Source of the DNA: Minisyncoccota bacterium
GTDB lineage: Bacteria; Patescibacteriota; Minisyncoccia; Phycocordibacterales; UBA1006
NCBI GenBank assembly: GCA_028697455.1
Contig: JAQVEZ010000003.1
Coordinates: 1 to 42,971 of the forward strand
Direction of reading: 5' to 3'
DNA length: 42,971 bases
Both the position numbers and the translations under genes were made by a program. Below, one piece after another: positions 23,602 to 29,740 of this stretch (position 1 is the stretch's first letter; each line of letters begins with the position of its first letter). The notes beneath the pieces are model-generated. The model saw nothing but the letters and a program-made list of their open reading frames with translations. It had not been told where the DNA came from and did no database searches.

Positions 23602-24348
23602 TTATTTCTGAAATATAAATAAATGTTCATGCATGATTAACAAAAAATTGCTTTCTTTGGATTTCTTTACCCAAAAACCAGTAGCCTTGCAATTATATTG
23701 TCTTTTTATAATATCTTCCTTTAGTTGAAATCCTACGTTGAGAAACTTTTCCATAACACGATAAGCGAGTGGTTGATACATTTTATTTCTACGAGTATCT
23801 CCAATTAAAATTGCACAGAATTTGCCAGGCTTAAGAACGCGAAAAAGTTCTTTAGCCACCTTTTCGATCTCATTAGCAAATATTTCGAGATTATGAATAT
23901 TTGAAAGATCCTCTTCTATTTCTCCATTACTGTATTTTATGATATCTGCATACGGAGGGTGCGTGAGAATAAAATCAACACTATCATTTTCAGCCTTACC
24001 CAAATCTCTTGCATCACGTTTTACTACTTTTTGCCAAGACTTATTCTCTACATCAAATTTCAAACTCTCTTTTGTTCGCTCAAGCGCACTATCATTTACA
24101 TCAGAACAAATAATATTTCTATTCAAAATCTTCGCTTCAATAGCAGTTGTTCCACCTCCTACCATTGGATCAAGTAAAATATCACCTTCGTCTGAATAAC
24201 GAAGTATAAGATTACGAGCAACCTCAGGAGACCAATTTCCCCGCCAATCTGATTTGTGTGTTGCCCAATTTCCTCGTCGAGGAAAGGCCCAGACAGTAGT
24301 GCATTCTAATTCAAAATTGTCTGGATGAAGTTTTACCTTTTTATTCAT
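23602..24348 (-). CDS. DNA methyltransferase of an R-M system (N4C/N6A type)
   Basis: Motif I-like LLDPMVGGGTTAIEAK preceding catalytic-like FILTHPPYADIIKYS; TTVWAFPRRGNWATHKSDWRGNWSPEVARNLILRYS. Confidence 0.82.
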   Translation of the reverse strand: MNKKVKLHPDNFELECTTVWAFPRRGNWATHKSDWRGNWSPEVARNLILRYSDEGDILLDPMVGGGTTAIEAKILNRNIICSDVNDSALERTKESLKFDVENKSWQKVVKRDARDLGKAENDSVDFILTHPPYADIIKYSNGEIEEDLSNIHNLEIFANEIEKVAKELFRVLKPGKFCAILIGDTRRNKMYQPLAYRVMEKFLNVGFQLKEDIIKRQYNCKATGFWVKKSKESNFLLIMHEHLFIFQK

Positions 24349-24946
24349 TCCAATATTCTTGTCCGAGCCTAAGTCGTTTTAATATATCCGTAAAACCAAT
24401 ATATTCAATATTCTTATCCTTATAAAAAGCTAGACTTTCTCTTAATTCAGGTGTTTGTTTCTGTGTAACGAGAAGATCTCCAAAACCAAATGCTTCACGC
24501 GCTTCGTACTCTTGATAGCCAACTAGAATAATTTGCAAGGGCTTATCATACAGTCGAGGAACTTCACCATATTTTAAAGGGACCCCAAGTATTTTTTCAC
24601 CAGCAGTTCCAGATGTCGTCCAGTTACGACCTTTCACCTCATAAACAAAATCGTCACATTCCAGGTCGGGTCTATACTCTTTATTGCGAATACTACTCTC
24701 CTTATTCTCTGCACGACGAACATTTTTTCTACCTATTTTCTCTAAAGCTTCTTTTGCTAAACCTTCGCACAGCCTTGTTGTCCATTGCCCATTATTTTCC
24801 GTACCCAATATACTATTTCCCCAATTATCTTCTTCTTTTTTAAAACTTTTTAATATCTTGTTGTTTGAAGTATCTGCTAAGGTTTTTTCTGTAATCCCTC
24901 TAAAACACCATTTAATAATATCATTGTTCTCTAATAAATTATCCAT
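24341..24946 (-). CDS. Type II restriction endonuclease candidate (PD-(D/E)XK)
   Basis: YRPDLECDDFVYEVKGRNWTTSGTAGEKI (PD...EVK); overlaps the adjacent methyltransferase start by 8 nt. Confidence 0.75.
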   Translation of the reverse strand: MDNLLENNDIIKWCFRGITEKTLADTSNNKILKSFKKEEDNWGNSILGTENNGQWTTRLCEGLAKEALEKIGRKNVRRAENKESSIRNKEYRPDLECDDFVYEVKGRNWTTSGTAGEKILGVPLKYGEVPRLYDKPLQIILVGYQEYEAREAFGFGDLLVTQKQTPELRESLAFYKDKNIEYIGFTDILKRLRLGQEYWNE

Positions 24947-24953
24947 CGTTCTC

Positions 24954-25907
24954 TTAATAGTTAGTTATTAATACTTCAGTAATTTTTCCTCGACCAGATG
25001 CTTTCGAATTAATTGAGCGTCCTGCAAAAATCTTATTAATTTTTACTCCTTTTATTCCTGAATATATTTTATTAATAAAAGGTGTGTCTGAATTTGAGAG
25101 CATAACAAAACATCCTCGCTTGGTAAGTTTCACAAAAGTATCTCTTAATTCAATCTGTTCTTTATCAAGAAAAGATTCTTTTGTGTATGAAGTAAAAGAA
25201 GATGTTTTATTTATAGGATAATAAGGAGGATCAAAATAAACAAAATCACCATTTTTCGCATTTTTCAAAACCTCTTTATAGTCTTGGTGTTTAATAAATA
25301 CGTTTTTAAGTACTTTCGAAACCCTTCTCAAATTCTGTTCATCACAAATGAGAGGGTTTTTATATTTACCAAAAGGTACATTAAACTCACCTCGGCTATT
25401 TACTCGATACATACCATTAAATCCAGTACGGTTAAGGTAAATAAAACGTGAAGCAACTTCTAGATCGGATAATTTTTCTACTCTTTGAGAACGAATCTTC
25501 AAAAAATATTCTTTATCATATTTATGTTTTTTAAGTGATTTAATAAGTTTTTCAACATCACTTTTTATAACGTTATAGGTAACAACAAGCTCTCTGTTTA
25601 AATCAGAAAGCTCTGCTTTTTTAGGGAGTAAGTCAAAAAATACCGCACCGCCACCAACAAATGGTTCAAAATAAGTATTGGTAACAGGATCAAAATCATC
25701 TGGTGGATAGAGTCCTAATTCACGAAATTGTTTGAGAAGCTGTCTCTTTCCTCCAACCCATTTAACAAAAGGTTTTGGTTTTTCTTCTAAAATTCTTTTA
25801 ATATCTTCAGTGGAGCTGTTTTCCCCTGAAACGCGGAGGAGATACTGTGCATAAATAGCATTAACGTCGAAAGTATCTGAGATTTTTAAAATAGTTTGCT
25901 TATTCAT
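24954..25907 (-). CDS. Dam-family (D12 class) DNA adenine methyltransferase
   Basis: KPFVKWVGGKRQLLKQF, YFEPFVGGGAVFFDLLP, FVYFDPPYYPINKTSSFTSY. Confidence 0.92.
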   Translation of the reverse strand: MNKQTILKISDTFDVNAIYAQYLLRVSGENSSTEDIKRILEEKPKPFVKWVGGKRQLLKQFRELGLYPPDDFDPVTNTYFEPFVGGGAVFFDLLPKKAELSDLNRELVVTYNVIKSDVEKLIKSLKKHKYDKEYFLKIRSQRVEKLSDLEVASRFIYLNRTGFNGMYRVNSRGEFNVPFGKYKNPLICDEQNLRRVSKVLKNVFIKHQDYKEVLKNAKNGDFVYFDPPYYPINKTSSFTSYTKESFLDKEQIELRDTFVKLTKRGCFVMLSNSDTPFINKIYSGIKGVKINKIFAGRSINSKASGRGKITEVLITNY

Positions 25908-25945: not shown

Positions 25946-25973
25946 ATAAAAAGCGTAATTTTGCGCTTTTTAT
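25946..25973. terminator. Hairpin ATAAAAAGCG / CGCTTTTTAT, probable terminator
   Basis: 10-bp inverted repeat with A/T tracts on both sides. Confidence 0.6.
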
Positions 25974-25979
25974 GTACTC

Positions 25980-25998
25980 GCGGAGAGTGTGGAATTCG
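25980..25998 (-). pseudogene. tRNA-Ser 3'-end fragment
   Basis: 18/19 identical to 26177..26195 (3' acceptor/T arm of tRNA-Ser). Confidence 0.75.
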
Positions 25999-26072
25999 GT
26001 CACCCTCATGGGTCTCGTTTCGTGCTTTGCACTCACTACGACCTCATTCGCTCGACCCCGCCGCTTGCGACA

Positions 26073-26089
26073 ATCCGCCCAAGGCGGAT
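26073..26089. repeat. Hairpin motif ATCCGCC-CAA-GGCGGAT
   Basis: 7-bp perfect inverted repeat; one of four TCCGCC..GGCGGA hairpins. Confidence 0.8.
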
Positions 26090-26138
26090 CGTAAACCGCT
26101 TCGCTTTTTTCTTATCCCAACTTATCCAGAAAAACAAT

Positions 26139-26167
26139 ACTCATCCAACGCGTTGTGTCGGATGAGT
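26139..26167 (-). terminator. Terminator of tRNA-Ser
   Basis: ACTCATCC/GGATGAGT stem followed on the minus strand by ATTGTTTTT. Confidence 0.7.
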
Positions 26168-26177
26168 TTGTGTTTTG

Positions 26178-26264
26178 CGGAGAGTGTGGGATTCGAACCC
26201 ACGGTCCCTTTGACAGGACGCCTCGTTAGCAGTGAGGTGCTTTCGACCACTCAGCCAACTCTCC
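26178..26264 (-). tRNA. tRNA-Ser (anticodon GCT)
   Basis: GGAGAGT/ACTCTCC acceptor, loop CTGCTAA, long variable arm, GTGGG-TTCGAAT-CCCAC, discriminator G. Confidence 0.95.
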
Positions 26265-26397
26265 GTATTTTTTATTGATTATATTGGAGCCGTAAAAGAA
26301 AGTAAGTAATACCATCTCCCGTGTTGGGTGGTCGAACCAGTTCGTCCGCTCTCACCTATCTCGCAAACTCGATAAAGGCTCGTCCCTCGGGATCGCC

Positions 26398-26416
26398 CCC
26401 AGTCCAAGGGACTGGG
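26398..26416. repeat. Hairpin CCCAGTCC-AAG-GGACTGGG
   Basis: 8-bp perfect inverted repeat abutting the next hairpin. Confidence 0.8.
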
Positions 26417-26431
26417 TCCGCCTCAGGCGGA
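26417..26431. repeat. Hairpin motif TCCGCC-TCA-GGCGGA
   Basis: 6-bp perfect inverted repeat abutting a tRNA-Ser 5' fragment. Confidence 0.8.
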
Positions 26432-26443
26432 AGCCAACTCTCC
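26432..26443 (-). pseudogene. tRNA-Ser 5'-end fragment
   Basis: AGCCAACTCTCC, 12/12 identical to 26253..26264, then diverges into the hairpin. Confidence 0.7.
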
Positions 26444-29363: not shown

Positions 29364-29506
29364 TACAAAAATTTAACTAAGTGAATAATGTTCAAACTAC
29401 TACACAAAAAAATGAACAAATATCTTAGCCCCTTCCCCTTGTAATGATTTGATACCCTTAATAATAAACCGAAAAGAAATTTAGTCAAATCTCTTTAAAA
29501 TATCTG

Positions 29507-29580
29507 TCCACCCACTTGGATTCGAACCAAGGACCGCAGAGGTATAAGCTCTGTGCTCTAACCAGCTGAGCTATGGGTGG
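29507..29580 (-). tRNA. tRNA-Ile (anticodon TAT)
   Basis: CCACCCA/TGGGTGG acceptor, CAGAG-CTTATAC-CTCTG anticodon arm, CTTGG-TTCGAAT-CCAAG T arm, discriminator A. Confidence 0.92.
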
Positions 29581-29626
29581 GCACATATTTCAAATTTTTC
29601 TTTGTGGAAATAAGTCTCGCACTCAC

Positions 29627-29644
29627 CTCCGCCGTTTGGCGGAG
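29627..29644. repeat. Hairpin motif CTCCGCC-GTTT-GGCGGAG
   Basis: 7-bp perfect inverted repeat of the TCCGCC..GGCGGA family. Confidence 0.8.
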
Positions 29645-29687
29645 AGTTATACGCGGACTATAATTTCTATTCACCTCACTACAAACG

Positions 29688-29740
29688 ATAAGCTCTGTGC
29701 TCTCTCACCATCCGCCAGCCGGCGGAAAGCTGTGGGTGGA
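29688..29740 (-). pseudogene. tRNA-Ile 5'-half copy with D-loop replaced by a TCCGCC..GGCGGA hairpin
   Basis: 29729..29740 matches 29569..29580 at 11/12; 29688..29703 matches 29544..29559 at 16/16; hairpin 29712..29727 lies between. Confidence 0.8.

Follow-up and report, generated by a model that had tools for sequence, protein, structure and literature searches.

The tRNA-Ser(GCU) gene studied here is intact, yet it is bracketed by fragments of itself, which raises the question of what these fragments are and how they arose. The gene lies in a window of about 43 kb (the whole stretch of DNA that was analysed), which is the start of a 112-kb contig in a 531-kb genome of six contigs. The host order belongs to Ca. 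Paceibacterota, ultra-small bacteria with genomes of about 0.5 Mb.

The tRNA-Ser(GCU) locus

An earlier note on this sequence had described a copy of the tRNA 5' end upstream of the gene and a copy of its 3' end downstream, each paired with a TCCGCC..GGCGGA hairpin, and had read the two as one further tRNA-Ser copy split around inserted palindromes. The description was reproduced in every detail. The 5'-end copy at 26432-26443 was identical at 12/12 positions and ran directly into TCCGCC-TCA-GGCGGA (26417-26431), ATCCGCC-CAA-GGCGGAT lay downstream of the gene at 26073-26089, and the 3'-end copy at 25980-25998 matched at 18/19 positions. The junction of 'GCT' with a hairpin recurred, as had been noticed, in a partial tRNA-Ile copy (29728-29739; hairpin 29711-29726). 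Within the 43-kb window, the 19-mer of the tRNA-Ser 3' end was found at two sites with up to 3 mismatches (0.00 by chance), the 12-mer of its 5' end at two sites with up to 1 mismatch (0.12 by chance), and the TCCGCC..GGCGGA pattern at four sites (0.01 by chance). The flanks are genuine tRNA-Ser copies joined to palindromes.

The proposed splitting of a single copy had to be given up. The fragments belong to two independently occurring classes of element, called 3' and 5' units below, and in each class the element has a folded body of its own as well as a stretch antisense to the tRNA end that it copies. The upstream fragment comes from a second, mirror-image class, so that upstream and downstream fragments do not add up to one split copy. 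The TCCGCC..GGCGGA hairpin can be exchanged: in related units its position is taken by other hairpins. It was found at six places in the own genome, four of them at these tRNAs and two on contig C6 (L039, G000; 521-536 and 1350-1365), where it is followed by AACTCTTATTCACTTTTT with no tRNA in the surrounding 2 kb and forms a separate small repeat.

Directly behind the tRNA-Ser unit (23602-25907, minus strand), genes for a D12 adenine-class and an N6/N4-class DNA methyltransferase flank a 201-aa ORF that gave no Pfam match. These methyltransferase genes possibly represent a restriction-modification system.

Anatomy of the 3' unit

The 3'-end copy found downstream of tRNA-Ser closes a 3' unit of about 200 nt. 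Read in the sense of the tRNA, the gene is followed by a trailer hairpin (T), a strand complementary to the tRNA 3' end (S'), the body, a sense copy of that 3' end (S) and a terminator. The features at tRNA-Ser are as follows.

26264-26177, minus strand: intact tRNA-Ser(GCU), between the two units (ARAGORN and Rfam tRNA)
26129-26176, minus strand: trailer hairpin T, terminator-like (about 50 nt in nearly all units)
26111-26128, minus strand: S', the antisense counterpart of the tRNA 3'-end copy, to which it is only partly complementary in this unit
25998-26110, minus strand: folded body, based on alignment, covariation and a match to covariance model R1 (25989-26120, E=2.5e-22)
26062-26043, minus strand: block GGCGGGGTCGAGCGAATGAG of the body, following the P2 hairpin
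26042-26012, minus strand: P3 of the body
26011-25998, minus strand: block CCATGAGGGTGACC of the body
26074-26088, minus strand: TCCGCC..GGCGGA hairpin, the apical part of P2 in the tRNA-Ser copy
25980-25997, minus strand: S, copy of tRNA-Ser positions 57-74 (17/18)
25946-25973, minus strand: terminator-like inverted repeat after S

The same plan was seen across the family. The 3' part of S', GGRNTYGAA, complements the 3' side of the tRNA T-arm, and some S' span the whole acceptor strand. S' pairs with S to form helix P1, which varies by isotype (CTTG..CAAG at the own tRNA-Leu, TTCG..CGAA at most tRNA-Ser). S' is followed by AAAAG or CCGAG, by the variable hairpin P2, by GGCGGGGTCGAGCGAATGAG or its variants, by P3, a variable stem with a GAG/CGAA internal loop, by CCATGAGGGTGACC or its variants, and then by S (tRNA positions 57-74), behind which there is usually a terminator-like hairpin. 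In some units a hairpin interrupts S' at the junction of acceptor and T-stem (His in G009 and G013, Ser at L092, Asp at L109), which inflates the S' mismatch count; occupying the place at which a tRNA branches into its D and anticodon arms, this hairpin gives the units a tRNA-like look.

As the earlier note had anticipated, the composite recurs at other tRNA genes, in the own genome and in relatives. A similarity search of the own genome with this region gave matches at four more tRNAs, Leu(CAA), Gln(CTG), Arg(TCG) and Pro(TGG), and tRNA-Tyr bears a sixth 3' unit; examined as stretches, the genome holds at least six. The elements at Ser, Leu, Arg and Pro close with GGTGACC and, behind it, the 3' end of the tRNA that each adjoins, namely CAAGTCCCACCTCCGGCAC at Leu, CGAGTCCTGGCGGGTGGAC at Arg, CGAATTCCACACTCTCCGC at Ser (1 mismatch) and a less exact copy at Pro. 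They thus have a common body but an end fitted to the tRNA. At Gln, GGTGACC and the tRNA-copy end are gone.

The 5' unit, a mirror-image class

Upstream of tRNA-Ser, and likewise upstream of a tRNA-Ile in the window, the arrangement is reversed.

26323-26443, minus strand: 5' unit of tRNA-Ser
26443-26432, minus strand: 5'-end copy
26431-26417 and 26416-26398, minus strand: hairpins
26370-26349, minus strand: stem
26338-26323, minus strand: antisense copy of part of the D-arm
29506-29580, minus strand: tRNA-Ile(UAU), with its own 5' unit upstream
29612-29739, minus strand: 5' unit of tRNA-Ile
29739-29728, minus strand: 12-nt 5'-end copy (1 mismatch)
29726-29711, minus strand: hairpin
29703-29688, minus strand: exact 16-nt copy of the anticodon-arm region
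29643-29628, minus strand: hairpin

A 5' unit starts with promoter-like sequence and then repeats the tRNA from its 5' end to the D-loop, continues with a hairpin (often with a CTGC loop) and more stems, and ends with part of the tRNA 5' end in antisense and a spacer before the intact tRNA. Several 5' units have a UGUGAG..CGAA stem resembling that of the 3' body. Copies of the 5' end were present upstream of 22/174 tRNA loci, a set enriched for units, as compared with 0.5% in controls. At the four loci checked (L081, L012, L106, L100), the leader that precedes the 5'-end copy is repeated before the tRNA, which mirrors the duplicated terminator of the 3' class.

Outside the window, Ser(GGA) of the own genome has a 5' unit, and the own tRNA-Leu, tRNA-Arg and tRNA-Tyr have 3' units without a 5' unit. 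At Ser(GCT), both classes occur in the own genome and in G009, and the 5' class occurs alone in G005 and G007; the classes are thus independent.

Distribution and tailoring to the tRNA

Model R1 detected 3' units in at least 48/397 genomes and at least 34/180 genera of the order, both counts being lower bounds with at most eight candidates scored per genome. In a phylum-wide sample only 2/380 genomes had units, and both came from the same order of Ca. Paceibacterota. Among the 91 units in fetched loci, 75 had a same-strand tRNA within 400 nt upstream, with a gap from tRNA to modelled unit of 51-59 nt in most loci. The isotypes concerned include Ser, Leu, Arg, Pro, His, Gln, Cys, Val, Tyr, Trp, Asp, Lys, Ile, Met, Ala, Gly and Phe, and they differ between genomes of one family. 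About half of the 16 units without such a tRNA are at contig starts, and units were also found behind protein genes. One 3' unit lies 75 nt behind a tmRNA gene (L152, G347:C6, 3546-4151), where S', interrupted by a hairpin, resembles the complement of the tmRNA 3' end. The 3' end of tmRNA is tRNA-like.

The ends follow the adjacent tRNA closely. In 66 close units, S was exact (18/18) in 30 and had at most 2 mismatches in 38. A permutation test of the kind that the earlier note had proposed gave a similarity far above chance: S differed from the adjacent tRNA by 3.1 mismatches on average as compared with 8.3 when the tRNA ends were permuted, the lowest of 300 permutations being 7.8. An exact S tends to go with a partly decayed S', and vice versa (Spearman -0.29, p = 0.02).

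Fold and covariation

In 94 aligned units, 93.6% of cells pair, with 297 double-change cells as compared with 84 +/- 8 in shuffles and a covariation score of 0.467, slid structures reaching 0.107 at best; since the units had been aligned by fitting to the model, the alignment leans towards the structure. The two body helices contain 17 G-U and 6 A-C pairs, a mild sign that the folding strand is that of tRNA sense, as RNA or single-stranded DNA. At the gathering score, Rfam reported only the tRNAs and tmRNA, and permissive scans of the units gave scattered sub-threshold matches alone, with no known RNA family, group I intron included. A hammerhead-like reading of the UGAG..CGAAA motif was rejected because the catalytic core is absent.

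Spread, direct repeats and empty sites

Body identity averaged 0.65 among other tRNAs of the same genome, as compared with 0.54 for the same isotype in other genomes. The nearest body was in the same genome for 22/75 units and at the same isotype for 4/75, with 2.5 expected in each case. Bodies are thus similar by genome and not by isotype, and therefore propagate within genomes, by insertion or gene conversion.

At the own tRNA-Tyr, an 89-bp perfect direct repeat (C56-S-T-S'-GAAAAAA) surrounds a 100-bp body, and at a tRNA-Trp in a genome of another family an 88-bp perfect repeat with the same limits surrounds a 115-bp body. Both of these [S-T-S'] repeat cases are recent. Tandem units occur at L110, L114, L113 and L124. 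Empty sites, which the earlier note had suggested looking for, do exist. The tRNA-Ser of G003, G010 and G011 has no unit, and the locus of tRNA-Tyr and a gene that we take by eye to be clpB-like is syntenic in G011, G002, G004 and G001, where a plain trailer is found and the unit is absent; these syntenic sites come from other species, not strains.

Units near protein-coding genes

No ORF was found in 66/75 tRNA-linked units, which are placed directly behind the tRNA. A few loci combine units with ORFs. In L153 (G393:C14, 1-8001), several T-S'-body units and ORFs take turns behind a tRNA-His; the ORF products include a cupin protein, a D-Ala-D-Ala ligase and a HIT-domain protein, and a second repeat, GAGTTCTAAYCCCGTCTACGACAGTACAC, comes after ORFs. 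In L147, tRNA-Ser(UGA) and a unit with an S' matching it enclose an ORF with DUF695. L215/L150 (G010:C3, about 96,800-103,200) is a cassette-like ORF array with repeats of 90-180 bp that are 79-90% identical; the last repeat is joined to a 3' unit, and the repeats between ORFs are mostly without a body. At L151/L213 (G058:C10), a 3' unit without a tRNA in the 17 kb upstream is closely preceded by CBASS-like genes (SMODS synthase, SAVED-HNH). In L148 (3180-3720), imperfect repeats with motifs like GAGCCATTTGAGCCAT and GTCCGATTCGTCC lie upstream of tandem units. The units may play an integron-like role at ORF arrays; most units are geneless.

At the end of G015 C14 (L145), an HTH/zinc-ribbon-like ORF runs in frame through the unit into an antiporter-like ORF. 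We considered whether this might be an autonomous element whose body holds a gene (L045/L145) but rejected it as probably an assembly chimera, as the ORF runs on into a second gene and its start looks foreign.

Search for a mobilising enzyme, a phage carrier and earlier descriptions

The units themselves are non-coding. A tyrosine recombinase was present as a single copy in 9/10 unit-bearing genomes tested, and that of the own genome is on another contig (C2); we take it to be Xer-like only because it is the sole copy. Reverse transcriptase was absent from the own genome, G015, G006, G342 and G390, and Y1 transposase, the enzyme associated with IS200/IS605-REP elements, from the own genome, G015, G014, G009 and G231. 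Hence no dedicated integrase, reverse transcriptase or Y1 transposase was common to the unit-bearing genomes tested. Carriage by phages was rejected as well: the one IMG/VR match was inside a coding region of a contig without an R1 match and is attributed to chance.

A description of the family was absent from Rfam and from the literature searched, which is weak evidence, with subscription journals and preprints mostly outside. The family is apparently undescribed.

Origin of the tRNA-Ser flanks

By a narrow balance, we consider it probable that tRNA-Ser is flanked by two structured elements, non-autonomous and probably mobile, whose family was seen in a single order of Ca. Paceibacterota only and which arose by insertion with duplication. 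The 3' class would insert in the T-loop of the tRNA gene and the 5' class in the D-loop, with duplication of the adjacent tRNA end and of the terminator (3' class) or the promoter/leader (5' class), so that one intact tRNA gene would always remain. A helix between the sense copy of the host tRNA end and its complement closes the element around a conserved folded body in tRNA sense. In favour of this reading are ends matched to tRNAs of nearly every isotype, the covarying fold, the spread of bodies within genomes, the long direct repeats, the tandem units, the 5'-end copies with their duplicated leaders, the syntenic loci without a unit and the confinement of the family to one order; against it are the lack of a dedicated enzyme in the genomes tested and the fact that the syntenic empty sites come from other species. 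We infer that gene conversion is not the sole cause of the spread and that transposition-like insertion is involved, that recognition probably falls on the folded strand, be it RNA or single-stranded DNA, and that an enzyme from the host or a helper presumably acts in trans. A host recombinase may be the mobiliser, or mobility may have been lost locally. S' might originate by snap-back copying from the terminator hairpin, an idea with which the continuous S-T / T-S' inverted repeat of some units (e.g. L069) is consistent. A wider claim is held more tentatively, as a possibility that we would not yet favour: the units would form a new class of mobile element that docks at both ends of tRNA genes. 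Such an element would build tRNA-like hairpins anew from the sequence of the local tRNA, using its acceptor and T-stem strands and in some cases a CTGC-loop hairpin where the two meet. It would travel with the help of a host enzyme, either as RNA or as a folded single strand, and could put together arrays of genes behind tRNAs in reduced genomes.

Parts of the evidence could be explained otherwise, as direct repeats could arise by tandem duplication or unequal recombination and bodies could spread by gene conversion. Such gene conversion belongs to a reading that we regard as rather unlikely, in which the units are cis-acting RNA modules, co-transcribed as leaders and trailers, that control tRNA folding or processing through competition among S, S' and the tRNA end. 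The covariation of the fold, the excess of G-U over A-C pairs with its preference for the tRNA-sense strand or RNA, and an S' built for pairing with the adjacent tRNA end all suit this reading, as does the promoter-like sequence before the 5'-end copy in several 5' units, with which the unit would be transcribed as a leader. It fits poorly with a terminator-like hairpin standing between tRNA and 3' unit, with units behind protein genes, and with a patchy occurrence in which close relatives lack the unit at the same tRNA and the isotypes served vary among genomes of one family.

The ORF-bearing loci point to another reading, in which S'-body-S acts like an attC hairpin and the units are recombination sites of tRNA-anchored cassette arrays, with T-loops as docks and ORFs carried between sites. 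The alternation of units and ORFs behind tRNA-His in L153, the ORF enclosed by tRNA-Ser(UGA) and a unit of matching S' in L147, and the array of L150/L215 with a unit at its end speak for it, but most tRNA-linked units stand geneless and directly behind the tRNA, and the inter-ORF repeats of L150/L215 mostly lack the body; we judge it improbable. Closest to the view of the earlier note is neutral debris, that is, decayed tandem tRNA duplicates that acquired palindromes and became pseudogenes. Longer tRNA parts are indeed kept in the 5' units of the own tRNA-Ile and of the tRNA-Leu at L106, and leader and terminator are duplicated as they would be under tandem duplication. Decay would not give conserved blocks and covarying helices common to bodies across tRNAs and families, and a single model finds the family order-wide, which makes this origin very improbable.

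If the insertion of mobile structured elements is the true explanation, bacteria with genomes of about 0.5 Mb harbour folded elements that are parasites or helpers of tRNA genes and remake their ends to suit each tRNA. This would be a new way to occupy tRNA loci without harm and a new conserved RNA/DNA fold, and would possibly explain some gene islands behind tRNA/tmRNA genes in Paceibacterota.

Comparison with known systems

Islands and phages that integrate into tRNA genes (P4/T-loop type) and tycheposons leave a copy of the tRNA 3' end distal to the intact tRNA. The 3' units likewise have a copy from the T-loop to the end of the tRNA distal to the gene and preserve one intact tRNA. In contrast to those elements, they measure about 200 nt without integrase or cargo, at their inner end the tRNA end is copied in antisense, they have a mirror-image counterpart in the 5' class, and a covarying body is common across isotypes. 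The direct repeat of the 3' end is present and an integrase within the element is absent, and because of the latter we did not file the units with tRNA-targeted integrative elements.

Integron cassettes consist of an ORF and an attC site and are inserted at attI by IntI, with core sites R' GTTRRRY and R'' RYYYAAC. The units resemble attC in being folded sites with complementary ends, which at some loci alternate with ORFs. They differ in that their ends are local tRNA copies, their body has conserved blocks and most of them are geneless; in place of the integron core sites, the unit ends, read by eye, are GGRNTYGAA and GGTGACC|RANYCC, from the tRNA T-arm.

Tandem tRNA duplication (e.g. eLife 2020, PMC7661048) also duplicates parts of tRNA transcription units locally, whereas here the ends alone are duplicated and a conserved extra body is added.

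REP/BIME, Rickettsia palindromic elements and MITEs are short, non-coding, hairpin-forming, genome-repeated and non-autonomous. The units share all of these properties, but they are tied to tRNA genes, the own genome is without a Y1 transposase, and ends taken from the host tRNA replace fixed termini.
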